Shown piece after piece: positions 7,804 to 41,790 of a stretch of DNA of 64,000 bases; positions within the stretch are counted from its first letter, which is position 1, and every line of letters starts with the position of its first letter. The DNA comes from Variovorax paradoxus (GTDB lineage Bacteria; Pseudomonadota; Gammaproteobacteria; Burkholderiales; Burkholderiaceae_C). The position numbers were made by a program, and so were the translations under genes. The notes under the pieces were generated by a model. That model saw only the letters and a list, made by a program, of their open reading frames with translations. It searched no databases and had not been told where the DNA came from. The DNA is taken from the NCBI RefSeq assembly GCF_030815855.1, contig NZ_JAUSXG010000001.1, positions 4,402,001-4,466,000 on the forward strand, in the 5' to 3' direction.

Positions 7804-7863
7804 ATGAACGGATGGTCATGGATCGTTACCATCCATGGCTGCTTTCCCTCTCCCTCTCGATGA
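7804..7863 (+). CDS. Possible 19-codon upstream ORF coupled to dctQ
   Basis: A short frame, MNGWSWIVTIHGCFPSPSR, preceded by a good AGGAAA at 7792-7797, six bases before its ATG. Its TGA overlaps the ATG of the TRAP small-permease gene (ATGA at 7860-7863). That dctQ start has no ribosome-binding site of its own, so ribosomes may reach it by coupling through this mini-ORF. The inverted repeat GGATGGT/ACCATCC lies inside it. There is no evidence that the peptide has a function. Confidence 0.35.
   Translation: MNGWSWIVTIHGCFPSPSR
7810..7834. promoter_or_regulatory. Inverted repeat inside the dctQ leader
   Basis: GGATGGT (7810-7816) and ACCATCC (7828-7834) form seven-base arms with an 11-base spacer. 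They lie within the putative mini-ORF before dctQ. There is no T-run, so it is not an intrinsic terminator. It could be a protein-binding site or an RNA hairpin affecting translation. Confidence 0.3.
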
Positions 7864-19779: not shown

Positions 19780-19880
19780 TCCCTCCCCTCCCGGGGGAGG
19801 GCTGGGGTGGGGGCAGGCGGCGCATCCATGGAGCGCCCTGCCCGCCCCCATCCCAACCTTCCCCCAAAGGGGGAAGGAGC
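19780..19880. repeat. Miniature inverted-repeat pair (degenerate copy)
   Basis: Left: a C/G palindrome about 19780-19800, then the tail CTGGGGTGGGGG. Right: CCCCCATCCCAACC, then a palindrome near 19859-19876. The 28-base middle contains GGCGGCGCAT and GAGCGCCCTGC, which also occur between the pair at 41113-41224. It fills the gap between the convergent amidase and dehydrogenase genes and may serve as a terminator for both. Confidence 0.7.
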
Positions 19881-20865: not shown

Positions 20866-22743
20866 CTACATCAGGGGTGTGGCTTCGCTCTTCTGCAAAG
20901 TCCACATCTGCGCATAGCGGCCTTGCTTGGCCAGCAGCTGTGCGTGGGTGCCTCGCTCGACGATCACGCCGGATTCGAGCACCAGGATCTCGTGCGCGTC
21001 GACCACGGTCGACAGCCGGTGCGCGATGACCAGCGTGGTCTTGTCCTGCGCCGCACTCTTGAGCTCCGACTGGATGGCACGCTCGTTGGCCGAGTCGAGC
21101 GCGGAGGTGGCCTCGTCGAAGATCACGATCGGCGGGTTCTTAAGCAGCGTGCGCGCAATGGCCACGCGCTGCTTCTCGCCACCCGACAACTTGAGGCCGC
21201 GTTCGCCCACGGTCGTTTCGTAGCCTTTGGGCGTGGCCGAGATGAAGTCGTGGATGCGTGCCGCGCGCGCGGCACCTTCCACTTCCTCGCGCGTGGCACC
21301 GGGGCGGCCGTAGGCGATGTTGTATTCGACCGTGTCGTTGAACAGCACCGTGTCCTGCGGCACGATGCCGATCGCGCGGCGCACGCTGGACTGCTGCACT
21401 TCGCGGATGTCCTGGCCGCCGATGGTGATGCGGCCTTGCTGGACGTCGTAGAAGCGATAGAGCAGCCGTGCGAGCGTCGATTTTCCAGAGCCCGAGGGGC
21501 CGACCACGGCGACGGTCTTGCCGGCGGGAATCTCGAAGCTAACGTGCTTGAGGATGGGCCGGGCGGGCTCGTAGGCGAAGCTCACGTCCTCGAAACGGAT
21601 GGTGGAGTCGACGCCGCTGCCCTCACCCCCGCCCTCTCCCGGAGGGAGAGGGTGCAAAGACAGAGGTTGCGCGCCGGGCGCGTCGCGCACCTCGCGCTCT
21701 TTTTCCATCAGCACGAACATCTTGTCCAGGTCGGTCAGGCTCTGCTTGATCTCGCGGTAGATCACGCCCAGGAAGTTCAGCGGAATGTAGAGCTGGATCA
21801 TGAAGGCGTTGACCATCACCAGGTCGCCCAGCGTCATGCGCCCTTCGACCACGCCCGAGGTGGCGCGCCACAGCATCAGCACCAGGCTCGCGGCGATGAT
21901 CATCTGCTGGCCGATGTTGAGCATGCTCAGCGTGCGCTGGCTCTTGATGGCGGCCTTGCGGTAGCGGTCCAAGCTCGCGTCGTAGCGCTTCGCCTCGAAC
22001 TCCTCGTTATTGAAATACTTGACGGTTTCGTAATTCAACAGCGAATCGACCGCGCGGCTCTGGGCCATCGAGTCGAGCTCGTTCATGGTCTTGCGGAACT
22101 GCGTGCGCCACTCGGTCACCGTGACGGTGAAGCTGATGTACAGCACCAGCGCCGCACCGGTGATCCAGACGAACAGCGAATCGAACTTCACGCCCAAAAT
22201 GGTGAGCACCAGCACCAGTTCGATGATGGTCGGCACGATGCTGTAGAGCGACATCGAGATGAGCGAGTGCACGCCGCGCGTGCCACGTTCGATGTCGCGC
22301 GTCATGCCGCCGGTCTGGCGCTCCAGGTGAAAGCGCAGGCTCAGCGAATGCAGGTGGCCGAACACCTCCAGCGCAATCTGCCGCGCCGTTCCCTCGGTGG
22401 CCTTGGCGAAGATCAGCTCGCGCAGTTCGCCGAAGAGCGCGGTCGAGAACCGCAGCAGCCCGTAAGCCAGCAAGAGCCCGATCGGCACGATCAGGAGCGC
22501 CTGCGCCATGTCGGGCTTGGGCGTCATCGTGTCGATGAGGTTCTTGAGCAGCACGGGCACGCCGACGTTGGCCACCTTGGCACCCACCATGAAGGCGAGC
22601 GCGGCGATCACCCGCCACTTGTACTGCCACAAATAGGGGAAAAGGCGGCGCAGCGTCGCCCAGTCGGAACGGTCGCTGCGCGCCGGCGCGTGGCCGGTGG
22701 CGGAATGGGAGGGAGGGGGTAGGGCTTCGCCGCTGCGGCGCAT
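20866..22743 (-). CDS. Atm1-type ABC exporter (fused membrane and ATPase domains)
   Basis: A 625-residue half-size ABC exporter. Six membrane helices span roughly residues 35-330. The ATPase domain has GPSGSGKST near 415, LSGGEKQRVAIARTLLKNPP near 520 and the Walker B IVIFDEATSALDS. The C-terminus VERGTHAQLLAKQGRYAQMW is typical of the Atm1/HMT1 group, which exports glutathione or thiol-metal compounds. I chose ATG 22743; longer frames overlap the divergent thioesterase. About residues 364-374 (HPLPPGEGGGE), in the linker, are encoded by a palindromic repeat. Confidence 0.9.
   Translation of the reverse strand: MRRSGEALPPPSHSATGHAPARSDRSDWATLRRLFPYLWQYKWRVIAALAFMVGAKVANVGVPVLLKNLIDTMTPKPDMAQALLIVPIGLLLAYGLLRFSTALFGELRELIFAKATEGTARQIALEVFGHLHSLSLRFHLERQTGGMTRDIERGTRGVHSLISMSLYSIVPTIIELVLVLTILGVKFDSLFVWITGAALVLYISFTVTVTEWRTQFRKTMNELDSMAQSRAVDSLLNYETVKYFNNEEFEAKRYDASLDRYRKAAIKSQRTLSMLNIGQQMIIAASLVLMLWRATSGVVEGRMTLGDLVMVNAFMIQLYIPLNFLGVIYREIKQSLTDLDKMFVLMEKEREVRDAPGAQPLSLHPLPPGEGGGEGSGVDSTIRFEDVSFAYEPARPILKHVSFEIPAGKTVAVVGPSGSGKSTLARLLYRFYDVQQGRITIGGQDIREVQQSSVRRAIGIVPQDTVLFNDTVEYNIAYGRPGATREEVEGAARAARIHDFISATPKGYETTVGERGLKLSGGEKQRVAIARTLLKNPPIVIFDEATSALDSANERAIQSELKSAAQDKTTLVIAHRLSTVVDAHEILVLESGVIVERGTHAQLLAKQGRYAQMWTLQKSEATPLM
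21620..21653. repeat. Single repeat end inside an ABC exporter gene
   Basis: Tail CCCTCACCCC followed by CCCTCTCCC/GGGAGAGGG arms around a short loop. It matches the ends of the DUF559 element at 28938-29325. It is in frame in the exporter gene and encodes a Gly/Pro/Glu-rich stretch in the membrane-to-ATPase linker, so the gene is not broken. Confidence 0.8.
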
Positions 22744-27671: not shown

Positions 27672-28868
27672 CTACACGCGTTCGAAGATGCCGGCTGCGC
27701 CCTGCCCCATCCCTACGCACATCGTGACCATGCCGTACTTCAGGTTCTCGCGCCGCAGCGCGTGCACCACGGTCGCCGCGCGAATCGCGCCCGTCGCGCC
27801 GAGCGGGTGGCCCAGCGCAATCGCGCCGCCCATCGGATTGACCTTGCTCGGATCGAGTCCCAGCGTATTGATGACTGCCAGCGATTGCGCGGCGAAAGCT
27901 TCGTTGAGCTCGAACCAGTCGATGTCCTCATGCTTGAGCCCCGCGTAGCGCAGCGCGGCCGGAATCGCCTCGATCGGCCCGATGCCCATGATGTGCGGCG
28001 GCACGCCCTTGCTTGCAAAGCTCACGAAGCGCGCGAGCGGCGTGAGGCCGTATTGCTTGACGGCTTTCTCGCTCGCCAGGATGAGCGCGCCCGCGCCGTC
28101 CGAGGTCTGCGAGCTGTTGCCCGCCGTCACGGTGCCGCGCGCAGCGAACACGGTGCGCAGCTTGGCCAAGCCTTCCAGGCTGGTGTCGGGGCGCGCGCCT
28201 TCGTCGAGGTTCACGGTGCGGGTCTTCGCAGTCGATTCGCCGGTCTCGAGGTTCGGCGTGCGGTCGGTCACGTCGATCGGCGTGATCTCGTCGGCGAACT
28301 TGCCGGCCTTCTGCGCGGCCAGTGCCTTCTGGTGCGAGGCGAGCGCGAACTCGTCCTGCGCGTCGCGGCTCACCTTCCACTGCTGCGCGACCTTCTCGGC
28401 CGTGAGGCCCATGCCGTAGGCAATGCCCACGTCGCCTTCGCGCTCGAAGATGGAGGGCGACAGCGAAGGCGAGTTGCCCATCATCGGCACCATGCTCATG
28501 CTCTCGACACCGGCGGCGATCATCACGTCGGCCTCGCCGACACGGATGCGGTCGGCGGCCATCTGCACTGCAGAGAGGCCCGAAGCGCAGAAGCGGTTCA
28601 CGGTGATGCCGCCGATGCTGGTGGGAAGACCCGCCAGCACCGCGCCGATGCGCGCAACGTTCAGGCCCTGCTGCGATTCGGGAATCGCGCAGCCGCAGAT
28701 GATGTCTTCGATCGCCTTGGGGTCGAGGCCCGGCACTGCGGCGAGCGCGGCCTTCAGCGTGGTCGCCAGCAGGTCGTCGGGGCGGTAATTGCGGAAGTAG
28801 CCGCGGTGGGATTTGCCGATGGGCGTGCGGGTGGCGGAGACGATGTAGGCGTCTTGGATTTGTTTCAT
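27672..28868 (-). CDS. Acetyl-CoA C-acyltransferase (thiolase)
   Basis: A 398-residue thiolase, normal length. The nucleophilic Cys is in VNRFCASGLSAVQMAADRI near residue 91, the His in GGAIALGHPLGATGAIR near 356, and the second Cys in TMCVGMGQGAAGIFERV. It performs the last step of beta-oxidation, splitting 3-ketoacyl-CoA. The ATG overlaps the stop of the DUF559 gene (ATGA at 28865-28868). The expected partner, the FadN-type enzyme, lies beyond that gene, so the DUF559 unit appears inserted into the beta-oxidation operon. Confidence 0.93.
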   Translation of the reverse strand: MKQIQDAYIVSATRTPIGKSHRGYFRNYRPDDLLATTLKAALAAVPGLDPKAIEDIICGCAIPESQQGLNVARIGAVLAGLPTSIGGITVNRFCASGLSAVQMAADRIRVGEADVMIAAGVESMSMVPMMGNSPSLSPSIFEREGDVGIAYGMGLTAEKVAQQWKVSRDAQDEFALASHQKALAAQKAGKFADEITPIDVTDRTPNLETGESTAKTRTVNLDEGARPDTSLEGLAKLRTVFAARGTVTAGNSSQTSDGAGALILASEKAVKQYGLTPLARFVSFASKGVPPHIMGIGPIEAIPAALRYAGLKHEDIDWFELNEAFAAQSLAVINTLGLDPSKVNPMGGAIALGHPLGATGAIRAATVVHALRRENLKYGMVTMCVGMGQGAAGIFERV

Positions 28869-29353
28869 GGCTTTTCAGTCCTTGTATCTTGTCTTGCTGA
28901 TTCGTCCGATGAGACGATGGTCGGCTGTTGTCTTGCTCCCTCTCCCGCTTGCGGGAGAGGGTTGGGGTGAGGGTTGTCTTCTCGCAGCGCCTGCAGAATC
29001 CGTTCGCGAACGGCATCCGTCTGCATCAGAACTTCGTTGTTCCAGAACCGAAGCACACGATAGCCCTGGGCTTGCATGAAGCGGGTCCGGTTCTCGTCGT
29101 ACGCGGCGGCTTCCACATGCTGGCCGCCGTCCAGTTCGACGATCAGCTTTGCTTCGAGGCACGCGAAGTCTGCGAAGTACGGCCCGATTGGCCGCTGACG
29201 GCGGAACTTTTGGTTGGCCAGGCGGCGGTCGCGCAGGTGGTACCAGAGCAGGGACTCGGCATCCGTCGGGGTTTCTCGAAGGCTGCGAGCCCTCACCCTA
29301 GCCCTCTCCCGCAAGCGGGAGAGGGGACCGGACGTGTCGATGTCTTCGCTCAT
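28865..29353 (-). CDS. DUF559 endonuclease-like protein carried between inverted repeats
   Basis: A 162-residue protein of the DUF559 family, related to Vsr-like and PD-(D/E)XK nucleases. Likely active-site residues lie in YFADFACLEAKLIVELDGGQ: Asp62, Glu73 and Asp75, with His79 after. A later GYRVLRFWNNEVL is family-typical. Residues about 10-21 (PLSRLRERARV) and 127-139 (NPHPNPLPQAGEG) are encoded by the two terminal palindromes, so only the middle is ancestral protein. The stop overlaps the thiolase ATG. Activity is inferred, not shown. Confidence 0.87.
   Translation of the reverse strand: MSEDIDTSGPLSRLRERARVRARSLRETPTDAESLLWYHLRDRRLANQKFRRQRPIGPYFADFACLEAKLIVELDGGQHVEAAAYDENRTRFMQAQGYRVLRFWNNEVLMQTDAVRERILQALREDNPHPNPLPQAGEGARQQPTIVSSDESARQDTRTEKP
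28938..29325. mobile_element. Putative DUF559-carrying inverted-repeat element (388 bp)
   Basis: Left end 28938-28973: a 24-base palindrome with arms CCCTCTCCCGC/GCGGGAGAGGG, then the tail TTGGGGTGAGGG. Right end 29290-29325: the tail CCCTCACCCTAG, then a palindrome that is the exact reverse complement of the left one. The ends are thus 36-base inverted repeats matching at 34 positions. The DUF559 nuclease domain lies between. The same ends occur as closely spaced pairs at 19780-19880 and 41113-41224 and singly at 21620-21653. Mobility is inferred. Confidence 0.6.
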
Positions 29354-29366
29354 GGTCCTTGCCAGG

Positions 29367-31790
29367 TCAGTTCCGCACCGGCTTCCCCGTGCTCAGCATC
29401 CCCATGATCCGCTCCTGCGTCGTCGGGTGCACGATGAGCGAGCAGAACGCCTTGCGTTCCAGCGTCATCAGGTATTCCTCGGTCACGAGCGATCCCGCGT
29501 CCACGTCGCCGCCGGTGACCACGTTCGCAATCAGGCTCGCGATATGGAAGTCGTGTGCGCTGATGAAGCCGCCGTCGCGCATGTTCACCAGCTGGCCCTT
29601 GATCGTCGCCGCGCCGCTGCGGCCCGCCACGCGGAAGGTGCGGCGCAGCGGTGCGCGGTAGCCGGCGTCGGCCATCGCCTTCGCTTGCTGCAGTGCCACG
29701 TAGAGCAGCTCGTCCTTGTTCGGCACGATCACGTCGCTGTCGAGCAGGTAGCCCAGCTTCTTCGAATCGAGCGCACCGGTGCCGACCTTGGCCATGGCCG
29801 CGGCGGTGAAGCCTTCGGTCAGGAACGGCAGCAGGTCGGTGCCCGTCGAGGCCGATGCATTTTCGGCCGCGCGGCGTGCGATGTACGTCAGGCCGCCCGC
29901 GCCGGGGATCAGGCCTACGCCGACTTCGACGAGGCCGATGTAGCTTTCCATGGCCGCCACGCGCTTGGCCGAATACACGGCCAGCTCGCAGCCGCCGCCC
30001 AGCGCCATGCCGCGCACGGCCGACACCACCGGCACGCTCGCGTAGCGAATCTTGAGCATCACGTTCTGCAGCTCTTCCTCGGCGCCTTCGACCGCGCCGA
30101 TGCCCGCGACCACGAAGGCCGGCAGCATCGCCTGGAGGTCGGCGCCGACCGAGAACATCTCGTCGGGCGACCAGATCACCAGGCCCTTGTACTCGGCTTC
30201 GGCCAGGTCGACCGCGGCGCCAAGCGCTTCGGCCACGTCGGGGCTGATGGCGTGCATCTTCGAATGGATGCTGGCGATCAGGACCTCGCCATCGAGCGTC
30301 CACACGCGCACGTCGCCTTCATCGCTGATGGTCGTGCCCGCGGTGTTGGCATCGGCCGCGTTCGCACCGAGCACGCTCTCGGGGAACAGCTGGCGGTCAT
30401 GCACCGGCAGCTTGCGCTGCGGCACGAACTTGTTCTGCGACGCGCTCCACGAGCCCTCGGGCGTGTGCACGCCGCCCGCCTCGGCCACCGGGCCTTCAAA
30501 CACCCACTTGGGCAGCGGTGCCGTGCTCAGCGCCTTGCCCGCGTCGATGTCTTCCTGCACCCACTTGGCGACCTGCGCCCATCCTGCCTCCTGCCAGAGC
30601 TCGAACGGGCCCTGCTTCATGCCGAAGCCCCAGCGCATCGCGAAGTCGATGTCGCGCGCGCTCTCGGCAATGGTCTCCAGGTGCACCGCGGCGTAATGAA
30701 AGCCGTCGCGCAGAATGGCCCAGAGGAACTGGCCTTGCGGTCCTTCGCTCTCGCGCAGCAGCTTCAGCCGCTCGCCCGCGGGTTTCTTGAGCATGCGGCC
30801 GTACACCTCGTCGGCCTTGGCGCCGGCGGGCACGTACTCGCCGCTCTGGAGGTCGAAGCGCAGGATGTCGCGGCCCACCTTCTTGAAGAAGCCGGCCTTG
30901 GTCTTCTGGCCGAGGTTGCCAAGCTCGAGCAGCTTGGCGAGCACGGGCGGCGTCGAGAAGTTGGCGTAGAACGGATCGCTCTCGGCGTCCAGGTTGTCCT
31001 GCAGCGTCTTGACGACATGGGCCATGGTGTCCAGGCCCACCACGTCGGCGGTGCGGAAGGTGCCCGAGCTTGCGCGGCCCAGCTTCTTGCCCGTGAGGTC
31101 GTCCACCACGTCGGGCGTGAGGCCGAACTTCTCGACTTCCTTGAGCGTCGCCAGCATGCCGGCGATGCCGACGCGGTTGGCGATGAAATTGGGCGTGTCG
31201 TGCGCGCGCACCACGCCCTTGCCGAGCGTGCTGGTGACGAAGGCCTCGAGGTCGTCGAGCACCTTCGGCTCGGTGGTGGGCGTGTTGATCAGCTCCACCA
31301 GGAACATGTAGCGCGGCGGGTTGAAGAAGTGAATGCCGCAGAAGCGCGGCTTCAGCGCTTCGGGCAACGCTTCGCTGAGCTTGGTGATCGAAAGGCCCGA
31401 GGTGTTCGAGGCCAGGATCGAGTGCTTGGCCACATGCGGCGCGATCTTCTTGTAGAGATCGAGCTTCCAGTCCACGCGTTCGGCAATCGCTTCGATGATG
31501 AGGTCGCACTCGCCGAGCTTGGCGAGGTCGTCGTCATAGTTGGCTTGCTCGATGAGCACCGCATCGGCCACGTCGCCGAGCGGTGCCGGCTTGAGCTTCT
31601 TGAGGTTGTCGATGGCGCGCGTGACGATGCCGTTCTTCGCTGCACCTTGAGCGACAGCGCCGGTCGCGTCCTTGGCGGCCAGGTCGAACAGCACCACGGG
31701 CACGCGCACGTTGACGAGATGAGCGGCAATCTGCGCGCCCATCACGCCGGCGCCGAGCACGGCGACCTTCTTCACTTGAAATCGGGACAT
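29367..31790 (-). CDS. FadN-type 3-hydroxyacyl-CoA dehydrogenase/enoyl-CoA hydratase
   Basis: An 807-residue bifunctional beta-oxidation enzyme in which the dehydrogenase comes first. The NAD-binding KVAVLGAGVMGAQIAAHLV lies at residues 7-25. A second helical dehydrogenase domain and a GFFKKVGRDI segment follow, then a crotonase domain from about residue 490 with SVGADLQAMLP and GMALGGGCELAV. It hydrates enoyl-CoA and oxidises 3-hydroxyacyl-CoA. The order is the reverse of FadB and like Bacillus FadN. It starts 38 bases after the DUF2147 gene; its ribosome-binding site is weak. Confidence 0.92.
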   Translation of the reverse strand: MSRFQVKKVAVLGAGVMGAQIAAHLVNVRVPVVLFDLAAKDATGAVAQGAAKNGIVTRAIDNLKKLKPAPLGDVADAVLIEQANYDDDLAKLGECDLIIEAIAERVDWKLDLYKKIAPHVAKHSILASNTSGLSITKLSEALPEALKPRFCGIHFFNPPRYMFLVELINTPTTEPKVLDDLEAFVTSTLGKGVVRAHDTPNFIANRVGIAGMLATLKEVEKFGLTPDVVDDLTGKKLGRASSGTFRTADVVGLDTMAHVVKTLQDNLDAESDPFYANFSTPPVLAKLLELGNLGQKTKAGFFKKVGRDILRFDLQSGEYVPAGAKADEVYGRMLKKPAGERLKLLRESEGPQGQFLWAILRDGFHYAAVHLETIAESARDIDFAMRWGFGMKQGPFELWQEAGWAQVAKWVQEDIDAGKALSTAPLPKWVFEGPVAEAGGVHTPEGSWSASQNKFVPQRKLPVHDRQLFPESVLGANAADANTAGTTISDEGDVRVWTLDGEVLIASIHSKMHAISPDVAEALGAAVDLAEAEYKGLVIWSPDEMFSVGADLQAMLPAFVVAGIGAVEGAEEELQNVMLKIRYASVPVVSAVRGMALGGGCELAVYSAKRVAAMESYIGLVEVGVGLIPGAGGLTYIARRAAENASASTGTDLLPFLTEGFTAAAMAKVGTGALDSKKLGYLLDSDVIVPNKDELLYVALQQAKAMADAGYRAPLRRTFRVAGRSGAATIKGQLVNMRDGGFISAHDFHIASLIANVVTGGDVDAGSLVTEEYLMTLERKAFCSLIVHPTTQERIMGMLSTGKPVRN

Positions 31791-31828
31791 GTTGATTGGT
31801 ATTTCTTGGTTGACAACGCGCGGCAGGC

Positions 31829-32263
31829 TTACTGCACGCGGTTCCAGGTTTGAGTGCGCCAGAAAGGCCCCAGGTAGCCACGGACCTCGAGCTTCTTGCC
31901 GCCGTCGATGGGCGTGAAGCTCGCGCGGTATTCCTTGCCGTTCTCGGGATCGAGGATCCTTCCGCCTTCCCAGACATCCTTGCCCTCGGCCTTCTTGCCG
32001 CCGCGGATGATCTCGAGCCCCGCAATGGGCTTGCCCTTGCGGTCGTCGGTGCATTCGTCGCAGATCGCGTCGGGCCTGGTGTCTTTCCGGAGCGACTTCT
32101 CGATGCGGCCGATGAGTGCACCATTGGATTCACCGATGCGGATTTCCGCCTTGACTTCGCCGGTCTTGTCGTCGACGTTGCGCCACAGGCCTACCGGCGT
32201 GCTCTGGGCCATGGCCGAGGCAGCGGTGACGGTGAACAAGAGGGCTACAAAGCTTGCTTTCAT
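31829..32263 (-). CDS. Secreted DUF2147 family protein
   Basis: A 144-residue protein with a signal peptide (MKASFVALLFTVTAASAMAQ) and one DUF2147 domain: PVGLWRNVDDKTGEVKAEIRI at the start and RGYLGPFWRTQTWNRV at the end. Two close cysteines in ICDECTDDR may form a disulphide or metal site. The molecular role of DUF2147 is unknown. It lies between the acyl-CoA dehydrogenase and FadN-type genes of a beta-oxidation operon, with short gaps of 38 and 44 bases. Confidence 0.88.
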   Translation of the reverse strand: MKASFVALLFTVTAASAMAQSTPVGLWRNVDDKTGEVKAEIRIGESNGALIGRIEKSLRKDTRPDAICDECTDDRKGKPIAGLEIIRGGKKAEGKDVWEGGRILDPENGKEYRASFTPIDGGKKLEVRGYLGPFWRTQTWNRVQ

Positions 32264-41099: not shown

Positions 41100-41112
41100 G
41101 CACTCTCTTTCT

Positions 41113-41224
41113 CCCTCTCCCTCCGGGAGAGGGTTGGGGTGAGGGCAAGCGGCGGCGAATTTGGCGCATGGCCGGATCGAGCGCCCTGCGCCCTCACCCT
41201 GGCCCTCTCCCCGAGGTAGAGGGG
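41113..41224. repeat. Miniature inverted-repeat pair between dctP and dctQ
   Basis: Left: palindrome with arms CCCTCTCCC/GGGAGAGGG (41113-41133) and the tail TTGGGGTGAGGG (41134-41145). Right: the tail CCCTCACCCTGG (41191-41202) and a palindrome (41203-41224). The 45-base middle contains GGCGCAT and GAGCGCCCTGC, as in the copy at 19780-19880. These are the same ends as those of the DUF559 element. The hairpins lie in the transcript between receptor and permease genes and could stabilise the 5' part. Confidence 0.82.
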
Positions 41225-41232
41225 ACAACACC

Positions 41233-41790
41233 ATGAACGACGAAAAGATCATTGACGACGAAGGCCACTTCCACGCGGAAGACGAGGCCGTCGACCTTTC
41301 CTCCACCATTGCCGAAGGCTGGATATCGCTCGCGATCTTCTGGATGCTCGCGCTCACGGTGTTCTACCAGTTCGTCACGCGCTACGTGATGAACGACTCG
41401 GCCGCATGGACCGAGGAGGTGGCGCGCTACATGCTGATTGCCGTGGTCTTCATCGGCGCGGCCGTCGGCGTGGCGAAGAACAACCAGATCCAGGTCGACT
41501 TTTTCTATCGCCACATGCCGGCGGCCATGGGCCGCTGGATCTCGCGCGCGGTCGACGTGCTGCGCACCGCCTTCTTTGCCGCGGCCGTGGTCATGACCGT
41601 GCAGATGATGCTGAAGATCGGGAACACCACGCGCATGACCATCGTCGATGCGCCCATGAACATCGTCTACGGGCTGTGCCTGTTCGGCTTCATCGCAATG
41701 ACCTGGCGCTCGATCCAGGTGGCGCGCATTCACTGGAAGCGCGGCTACAGCGTGCTCGAACGTCCCGAATCCACGCTGGCTGACCGCTGA
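41233..41790 (+). CDS. dctQ: TRAP transporter small permease
   Basis: A 185-residue DctQ protein with four helices. The hallmark VTRYVMNDSAAWTEEVARYML is near residues 48-68, followed by AVGVAKNNQIQVDFF. I chose ATG 41233; upstream in-frame codons lie in the repeat and encode Pro/Arg-rich sequence unlike the family. The ribosome-binding site is weak (GGGGACAAC), since the right end of the repeat stops eight bases before the ATG. It pairs with the DctM encoded 22 bases downstream. Confidence 0.9.
   Translation: MNDEKIIDDEGHFHAEDEAVDLSSTIAEGWISLAIFWMLALTVFYQFVTRYVMNDSAAWTEEVARYMLIAVVFIGAAVGVAKNNQIQVDFFYRHMPAAMGRWISRAVDVLRTAFFAAAVVMTVQMMLKIGNTTRMTIVDAPMNIVYGLCLFGFIAMTWRSIQVARIHWKRGYSVLERPESTLADR

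Follow-up and report, generated by a model that had tools for sequence, protein, structure and literature searches.

We found that a DUF559 nuclease domain encoded in Variovorax paradoxus is enclosed by two inverted REP palindromes, and that this link between DUF559 genes and REP ends is real, lies far above chance and reaches wider than Variovorax. The association is unreported within the open-licence literature searched, in which no paper on such a link was found, and prior notice elsewhere is possible. We propose, with a probability of roughly two in three, that the element is a REP-associated nuclease unit driving the copying and turnover of REPs, RAYT-like in its working and using an unrelated enzyme. 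The window, meaning the whole stretch of DNA analysed, is 64,000 nucleotides long, and its features are listed below.

28938 to 28973, forward strand: left REP-A end, a 24-bp palindrome with the inward tail TTGGGGTGAGGG (sequence reading, arm comparison, folding)
29290 to 29325, reverse strand: right REP-A end, inverted, a palindrome with the inward tail CTAGGGTGAGGG (sequence reading, arm comparison, folding)
28865 to 29353, reverse strand: DUF559 nuclease open reading frame of 162 aa, running through both REPs (ORF list, Pfam, family search)
28985 to 29302, reverse strand: DUF559 domain, PF04480 (placed by whole-genome profile search)
29294 to 29296, reverse strand: in-frame GTG within the right REP tail, a possible true start (sequence reading)
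27672 to 28868, reverse strand: thiolase gene, downstream neighbour and marker of the conserved site (ORF list and junctions of relatives)
29367 to 32054, reverse strand: 3-hydroxyacyl-CoA dehydrogenase / enoyl-CoA hydratase gene, upstream neighbour and marker of the conserved site (ORF as listed)
41113 to 41223, no strand: short REP-A pair, REPIN-like, with no gene inside (arm comparison, interior reading, folding)
19781 to 19877, no strand: short hybrid REP pair, REP-B on the left and REP-C on the right (tail pattern counts, sequence comparison)
21620 to 21652, reverse strand: single REP-A with tail, no partner seen (motif scan, sequence comparison)

The two palindromes, CCCTCTCCCGCTTGCGGGAGAGGG (28938-28961) and CCCTCTCCCGCAAGCGGGAGAGGG (29302-29325), are 24 bp each and are exact reverse complements of one another. 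With their 12-base inward tails they form 36-base arms (28938-28973 and 29290-29325) that are complementary at 34 of 36 positions (94%), which confirms the arrangement described in the first-pass annotation. Each palindrome folds into a 10-bp hairpin as single-stranded DNA, with 0 of 200 and 4 of 200 shuffles, respectively, folding at least as well. The PF04480 profile matched the open reading frame at 142 bits against a curated cut-off of 20.6 (E = 7.7e-42), and apart from DUF559 the Pfam search of the 162-aa product returned a sub-threshold MTES_1575 match and nothing else. The claim that the palindromes enclose DUF559 therefore holds for the domain but not for the open reading frame (28865-29353), which reads through both of them. 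Because an in-frame GTG (29296-29294) lies in the right-hand tail, the true start of the gene may be located there. A whole-genome profile search recovered this single DUF559 gene from the 5.95-Mb source genome, and the Vsr profile (PF03852) had no matches in the same genome.

We then assessed the other REP copies in the window and the source genome. The same ends had been claimed at three further sites in the window; those at 41113-41223 and 21620-21652 are indeed REP-A, but that at 19781-19877 is a REP-B/REP-C hybrid. The region 41100-41236 folds at -42.5 kcal/mol (z = -5.5). The 9-mer CCCTCTCCC is present in 10 copies in the window compared to 0.53 expected, and none of 100 shuffles reached 10. 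A lone CCCTCTCCC was also noted at 7846-7854, its palindromic partner missing at full match. REP-A tails in the source genome numbered 32 exact copies, or 52 when up to one mismatch was allowed, compared to 0 at this second level for a control pattern; counts were restricted to this level since the REP-A pattern was noisy at three mismatches (90 versus 57 for the control pattern). Fourteen inward REP-A pairs account for 28 of the 52 tails, their tails lying 50-67 bases apart (commonest 63), and these pairs show the properties that define REPINs, being inverted REP doublets with a short spacer, single-hairpin potential and many copies.

To score other genomes, each DUF559 domain was given the score of the strongest ungapped inverted repeat that its two flanks form with each other, with thresholds of 16 and 14. 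Short-type DUF559 was defined as 18 Variovorax genes with E values of at most 4e-22, the window's gene included and weaker matches left out. Among the first 24 loci from relatives, 19 scored at least 16, including all 17 of their short-type Variovorax loci. The adverse expectation that relatives would mostly be without the ends was not borne out, as these were found at 18/18 short-type Variovorax genes. A wider set of 139 DUF559 loci from Variovorax and a Pseudomonadota sample comprised the window's own gene, 30 loci from the Variovorax-stage search and 108 among the stronger matches listed in the Pseudomonadota sample, multidomain and truncated members included. Scores of at least 16 were reached by 92 of these loci and of at least 14 by 95, compared to 0/551 and 1/551 shifted windows of the same shape; 18 of the 92 are Variovorax loci at one common chromosomal site and are thus not independent. 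Loci L056 and L077, with scores of 10 and 13, are cut by contig ends. It was also noted that a third REP-A-like palindrome lies directly to the right of the DUF559 unit at locus L216.

In a further set of 80 named loci, 56 scored at least 16 (one of them, L288, a poly-C match) compared to 1/1388 random windows, these 80 being the best of a longer list and therefore leaning to close relatives. Two of them are from Variovorax, and others may overlap the genomes of the 139-locus set. By record title, the flanked named loci include ones from what we take to be Pseudomonadota, Desulfobacterota, Chloroflexota, Planctomycetota and Nitrospirota, as well as a Gastranaerophilales bin; metagenome bins, in which misassignment is possible, are numerous among them. 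The arm sequences differ by genome and follow a common plan, with a C-rich hairpin on the outside and a G-rich tail on the inside. Across the 92 flanked loci, the inner part was richer in G than the outer part in both arms at 68, the opposite was found at 2, and 22 were mixed. No inverted pair with a score of at least 14 was present at 44/139 loci, and 24 of these had a REP-like 9-mer within 400 nt, compared to 8/273 background windows. At one locus from Legionella anisa (L276), the DUF559 gene lies within a long inverted repeat with a score of 83.

The chromosomal site of the unit was characterized across relatives. The short-type gene lies between the fadN-like gene (the name given in the first-pass annotation to the 3-hydroxyacyl-CoA dehydrogenase / enoyl-CoA hydratase gene) and the thiolase gene in 18/18 Variovorax genomes. 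From 61 genomes, 50 junctions were read: 27 held DUF559 (13 A-type and 14 C-type), 18 were empty with a spacer of 16-29 nt, three held another spacer, and the remaining two were a single REP-A palindrome (G031, L189) and an unreadable junction (L231). An empty site at this junction, as had been envisaged, therefore exists. Identity to the window protein over the domain was 75-100% for the A-type and 46-52% for the C-type, each with its own REP ends. On a tree built from approximately 1 kb of the neighbouring fadN-like gene (a single gene, 49 rows), the site states require 18 changes. The A-type label shows no clustering, with 383 of 500 shuffles giving values as low, and sister rows joined with good support carry different types. 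Since the two types alternate across this tree with their own ends, the protein and its ends turn over jointly, as one cassette at a fixed site.

Similar turnover was encountered at the REPIN sites. At the 41113 site, read in the source genome and 29 relatives, one relative carries a single palindrome within the same outer flanks, and the others carry other spacers, single palindromes or none. Six further REPIN sites of the source genome, as far as they were recovered in five relatives, variously showed a REP-A pair, a pair of another kind, a lone palindrome or none of these. Neither target-site duplications nor exact insertion boundaries were callable at the junction, the 41113 site or these six sites, though empty sites exist, because the spacers are too short and diverged. 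A second dispersed repeat of approximately 70 nt was observed in some Variovorax, occupying the same spacers as REP pairs and reading GGGGGCAACACCnGCGGCCCGGCAAAGCCGG or close variants with arms ACACCnGCGG/CCGCGGTGT (by eye). It occupies the fadN-thiolase junction at L199, L208 and L218 and the 41113 site at L235-L237, L239-L241, L244 and L258; its exact 31-mer was found at 7/403 loci and had no match in the window even with three mismatches allowed.

DUF559 is a large family whose members are usually named merely as endonuclease-domain proteins. The window protein has 6006 homologues at E values of 1e-3 or better among 6220 candidates, and its AlphaFold2 model reached a pLDDT of 88. Five residues (E16, D45, E56, D58 and H62; the pattern E, D, E-x-D, H) are invariant in 27 diverse members, with the window domain as the first row, and they are presumably catalytic. 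The DUF559 genes are under purifying selection, with a median dN/dS of 0.12 for the 13 A-type genes and 0.11 for the 14 C-type genes. By sequence, the nearest proteins of solved structure were the endonuclease-like 3hrl (E = 8e-39) and, at E = 0.0027, the mobile intron protein 3r3p, which we take to be the EDxHD enzyme I-Bth0305I. The window protein resembles the EDxHD homing endonucleases in a weak but significant similarity of the nuclease domain; unlike them, its gene is bounded by REPs, and the 162-aa open reading frame has no second Pfam domain. It belongs by sequence to the same family as the Vsr/YcjD-type PD-(D/E)XK nucleases (PDB 3hrl; NCBIfam PRK09767, which is presumably YcjD). A YcjD profile is described as detecting Vsr (PMC1189080, in excerpt). 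PHROGs gave weak matches, the best (E = 3.9e-5) to a family of unknown function. A role in anti-phage defence was considered and set aside, the PADLOC search giving only a marginal match to DpdF (E = 0.0041).

Protein and ends also diverge together. Among the 95 flanked loci, mean arm similarity was 0.66-0.87 for protein pairs at least 60% identical (156 pairs, largely Variovorax) and approximately 0.45 for the others (4309 pairs), and within genomes alone the correlation was not significant (33 pairs; rho 0.32; p = 0.07). Copies retrieved from the same genome are distinct, as 0 of 61 within-genome pairs of retrieved copies from 26 multi-copy genomes reached 90% identity and 53 were under 60%.

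We further examined whether dispersed REPs co-occur with the gene. In 37 Variovorax genomes, A- and C-type REP tails together had a median of 68.5 and a minimum of 14 in the 18 with short-type DUF559, compared to a median of 1 in the other 19 (p = 8e-7, a value that, like the one for the phylum below, overstates the evidence because the genomes are related by descent). Five of the 19 still hold 10-43 REPs; three of these have weak PF04480 matches (G008, G013, G015) and two have none (G018, 89% complete, and G031). Weaker matches within the 19 were found in G006, G008, G013, G015 and G022, and completeness was under 90% in G012, G018, G021 and G022. In the phylum sample of 299 genomes, at least five REP-A copies net of control were present in 28/80 genomes with DUF559 (E < 1e-10) versus 7/219 others, 28 of which hold weaker DUF559 matches (Fisher exact test; p = 2.5e-12; counts by hand for the REP-A family alone, kinship ignored). 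The seven REP-A-rich genomes of 35 without a DUF559 match, each with at least five REP-A copies, were G257, G316, G092, G109, G149, G199 and G320. In two other REP-A-rich genomes, G336 and G225, REP-like motifs accompany the DUF559 gene on a single flank (L081, L083). The idea that the cassette type sets the REP type of a genome was rejected, as the A share of A- plus C-type REPs did not differ between 5 A-type and 13 C-type genomes (p = 0.25).

The first-pass annotation had read the DUF559 unit as an autonomous parent and the short pairs as its internally deleted derivatives. This reading is unsupported because the unit keeps one site in the genus and the short pairs contain no visible gene remnant, as judged by eye rather than by alignment. 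With the gene at the same site in all 18 Variovorax genomes, the unit is not visibly jumping; neither near-identical unit copies nor target-site duplications, the marks of an autonomous transposon, were seen. Comparison of the short pairs with the full unit bore out common ends, but beyond the tail at most a weak motif, GC[GA]GC within 12 nt, is held in common, and the deletion origin was rejected. Among the short pairs, this motif followed the tail in 20/43 cases for REP-A, 6/6 for REP-B and 0/4 for REP-C; at the DUF559 ends the counts were 7/25 for the A-type and 16/27 for the C-type, compared to a background of 7.8%. The short pairs look like REPINs served in trans. In-place replacement of REP-A by REP-B ends was considered at one REPIN site of the source genome and dropped, the interior identity being 0.61-0.70 compared to a mean of 0.45 and a maximum of 0.70 for unrelated interiors.

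The closest known system is that of the RAYTs and REPINs, or REPtrons. In published descriptions, two inverted REPs always flank the rayt genes (PMC2817692, in excerpt), RAYTs are single-copy and distinct while REPINs are inverted REP doublets (PMC3116915, in excerpt), and REPINs are commoner in E. coli genomes that have a RAYT (PMC8049555, in excerpt). The DUF559 system is alike in its enzyme gene between two inverted REPs, its dispersed short inverted REP pairs, its distinct copies within a genome, the co-divergence of enzyme and ends, and the greater number of REPs where the enzyme is present. It differs in the enzyme, which by Pfam has no HUH/Y1 transposase domain, and in the REPs of the window, which by eye have no GTAG-type head at the feet of the palindrome and carry instead a G-rich tail facing the gene. 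The CGTC-tagged REPs are described as apparently without a dedicated transposase (PMC3733652, in excerpt), which leaves an opening for a non-transposase enzyme; the window REPs, by eye, lack the CGTC tag.

Because these traits match the RAYT/REPIN system and the enzyme belongs to another superfamily, we propose that the nuclease is REP-associated and makes its cuts at REPs. The unit consists of a DUF559 gene (YcjD/Vsr-like, PD-(D/E)XK-type) between two inverted REPs, whose type matches that of the protein. The single-copy nuclease would recognise REP pairs at other chromosomal positions by their hairpin and/or G-rich tail and would cut there, and repair of the break could then lead to copying and turnover of REP pairs, including their collapse to single palindromes. 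Such a unit would work as a RAYT does with its REPINs, through an unrelated nuclease of restriction/homing type. The suggestion of a nuclease-based counterpart of a RAYT gains support from the flanked loci of both sets, and the unit looks like one. What the analysis observed directly is the linkage, tails that mostly point inward, co-occurrence with dispersed REPs across the genus and (for a single REP family) the phylum sample, joint divergence of protein and ends, turnover of the cassette and purifying selection; that the enzyme recognises and cuts REPs, and that cutting spreads them, is inferred. Several observations count against this proposal: in Variovorax a single locus was seen, without target-site duplications; a RAYT-like gene that could act in trans is widespread in the genus; the REP share does not follow the cassette type; some genomes without DUF559 hold REPs; 44/139 DUF559 loci are without an inverted pair, and two in REP-A-rich genomes have REP-like motifs on a single flank; and the within-genome correlation falls short of significance.

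Three other explanations were weighed. DUF559 might be a free-standing, selfish homing nuclease for which REP pairs, spread by other means, serve as the landing site and are invaded in their interiors. Apart from 3hrl, the one sequence relative of solved structure is a mobile intron protein, and sister species carry different ones of the two divergent cassettes that alternate at the site, both of which fit homing; however, under homing a genome should hold nearly identical copies in several of its REP pairs, and none of the within-genome pairs of retrieved copies reaches 90% identity (0/61), each of the 18 Variovorax genomes has one short-type gene, and homing alone does not account for the scarcity of REPs without DUF559. 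We regard it as unlikely. We consider it more improbable still that a chromosomal RAYT-like (Y1) protein spreads the REPs in trans while DUF559 merely sits in a REP pair. One Y1_Tnp gene is present in 34/37 Variovorax genomes, RAYTs are known REP mobilisers (PMC3116915 and PMC2817692, in excerpt), and some RAYT-like genes are described without REP flanks (PMC3733652, in excerpt). Yet the constant REP flanks reported for RAYTs (PMC2817692, in excerpt) are not encountered here: 0/7 Variovorax RAYT-like loci have an inverted repeat at score 16, and a palindrome with a 9-bp stem was found at 0/8 RAYT-like loci (seven Variovorax and one from the order). In addition, 12/34 genomes with the RAYT-like gene hold at most five A- and C-type REPs. 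The Variovorax RAYT-like genes were accordingly set aside as mobilisers, being unlinked to REPs, although they could act in trans.

Least probable, at below one in ten, is that DUF559 is a Vsr-like host repair or restriction nuclease whose flanking REPs are terminators or recombination hot spots. A Caulobacter DUF559 protein, VsrA, is described as required for the SOS response that is seen when a cytosine methyltransferase is lacking (PMC12907096, in excerpt), and Legionella segments with a transposase and DUF559 as mutation and recombination hot spots (PMC12308824, in excerpt). Against this, genes for Vsr proper (PF03852) have no such repeats around them, with 0/30 loci of the matches listed reaching a score of 14 (three of them, L383, L395 and L396, are cut by contig ends and were framed by a rough rule), shifted and random windows are almost free of such ends, and the inward orientation of the tails and the genus-wide co-occurrence are left unexplained.

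The REP-associated nuclease remains our preferred reading, and the results suggest that the DUF559 family helps to spread or maintain common dispersed palindromes. More broadly, we lean slightly towards DUF559 being a second, transposase-free class of REP-propagating systems in several bacterial phyla, one that would cut REP hairpins or G-rich tails, propagate the REPs as the break is repaired and be the source of many short palindromic repeats with no known transposase. REPs are common bacterial repeats, and some families are described as having no known mobiliser (PMC3733652, in excerpt). If the proposal is true, a family of unknown function would gain a role as the cognate enzyme of such REPs, oligonucleotides and a single purified protein could be used to test whether a non-transposase spreads repeats, and it could be asked directly where REPs come from in genomes that have no linked RAYT.
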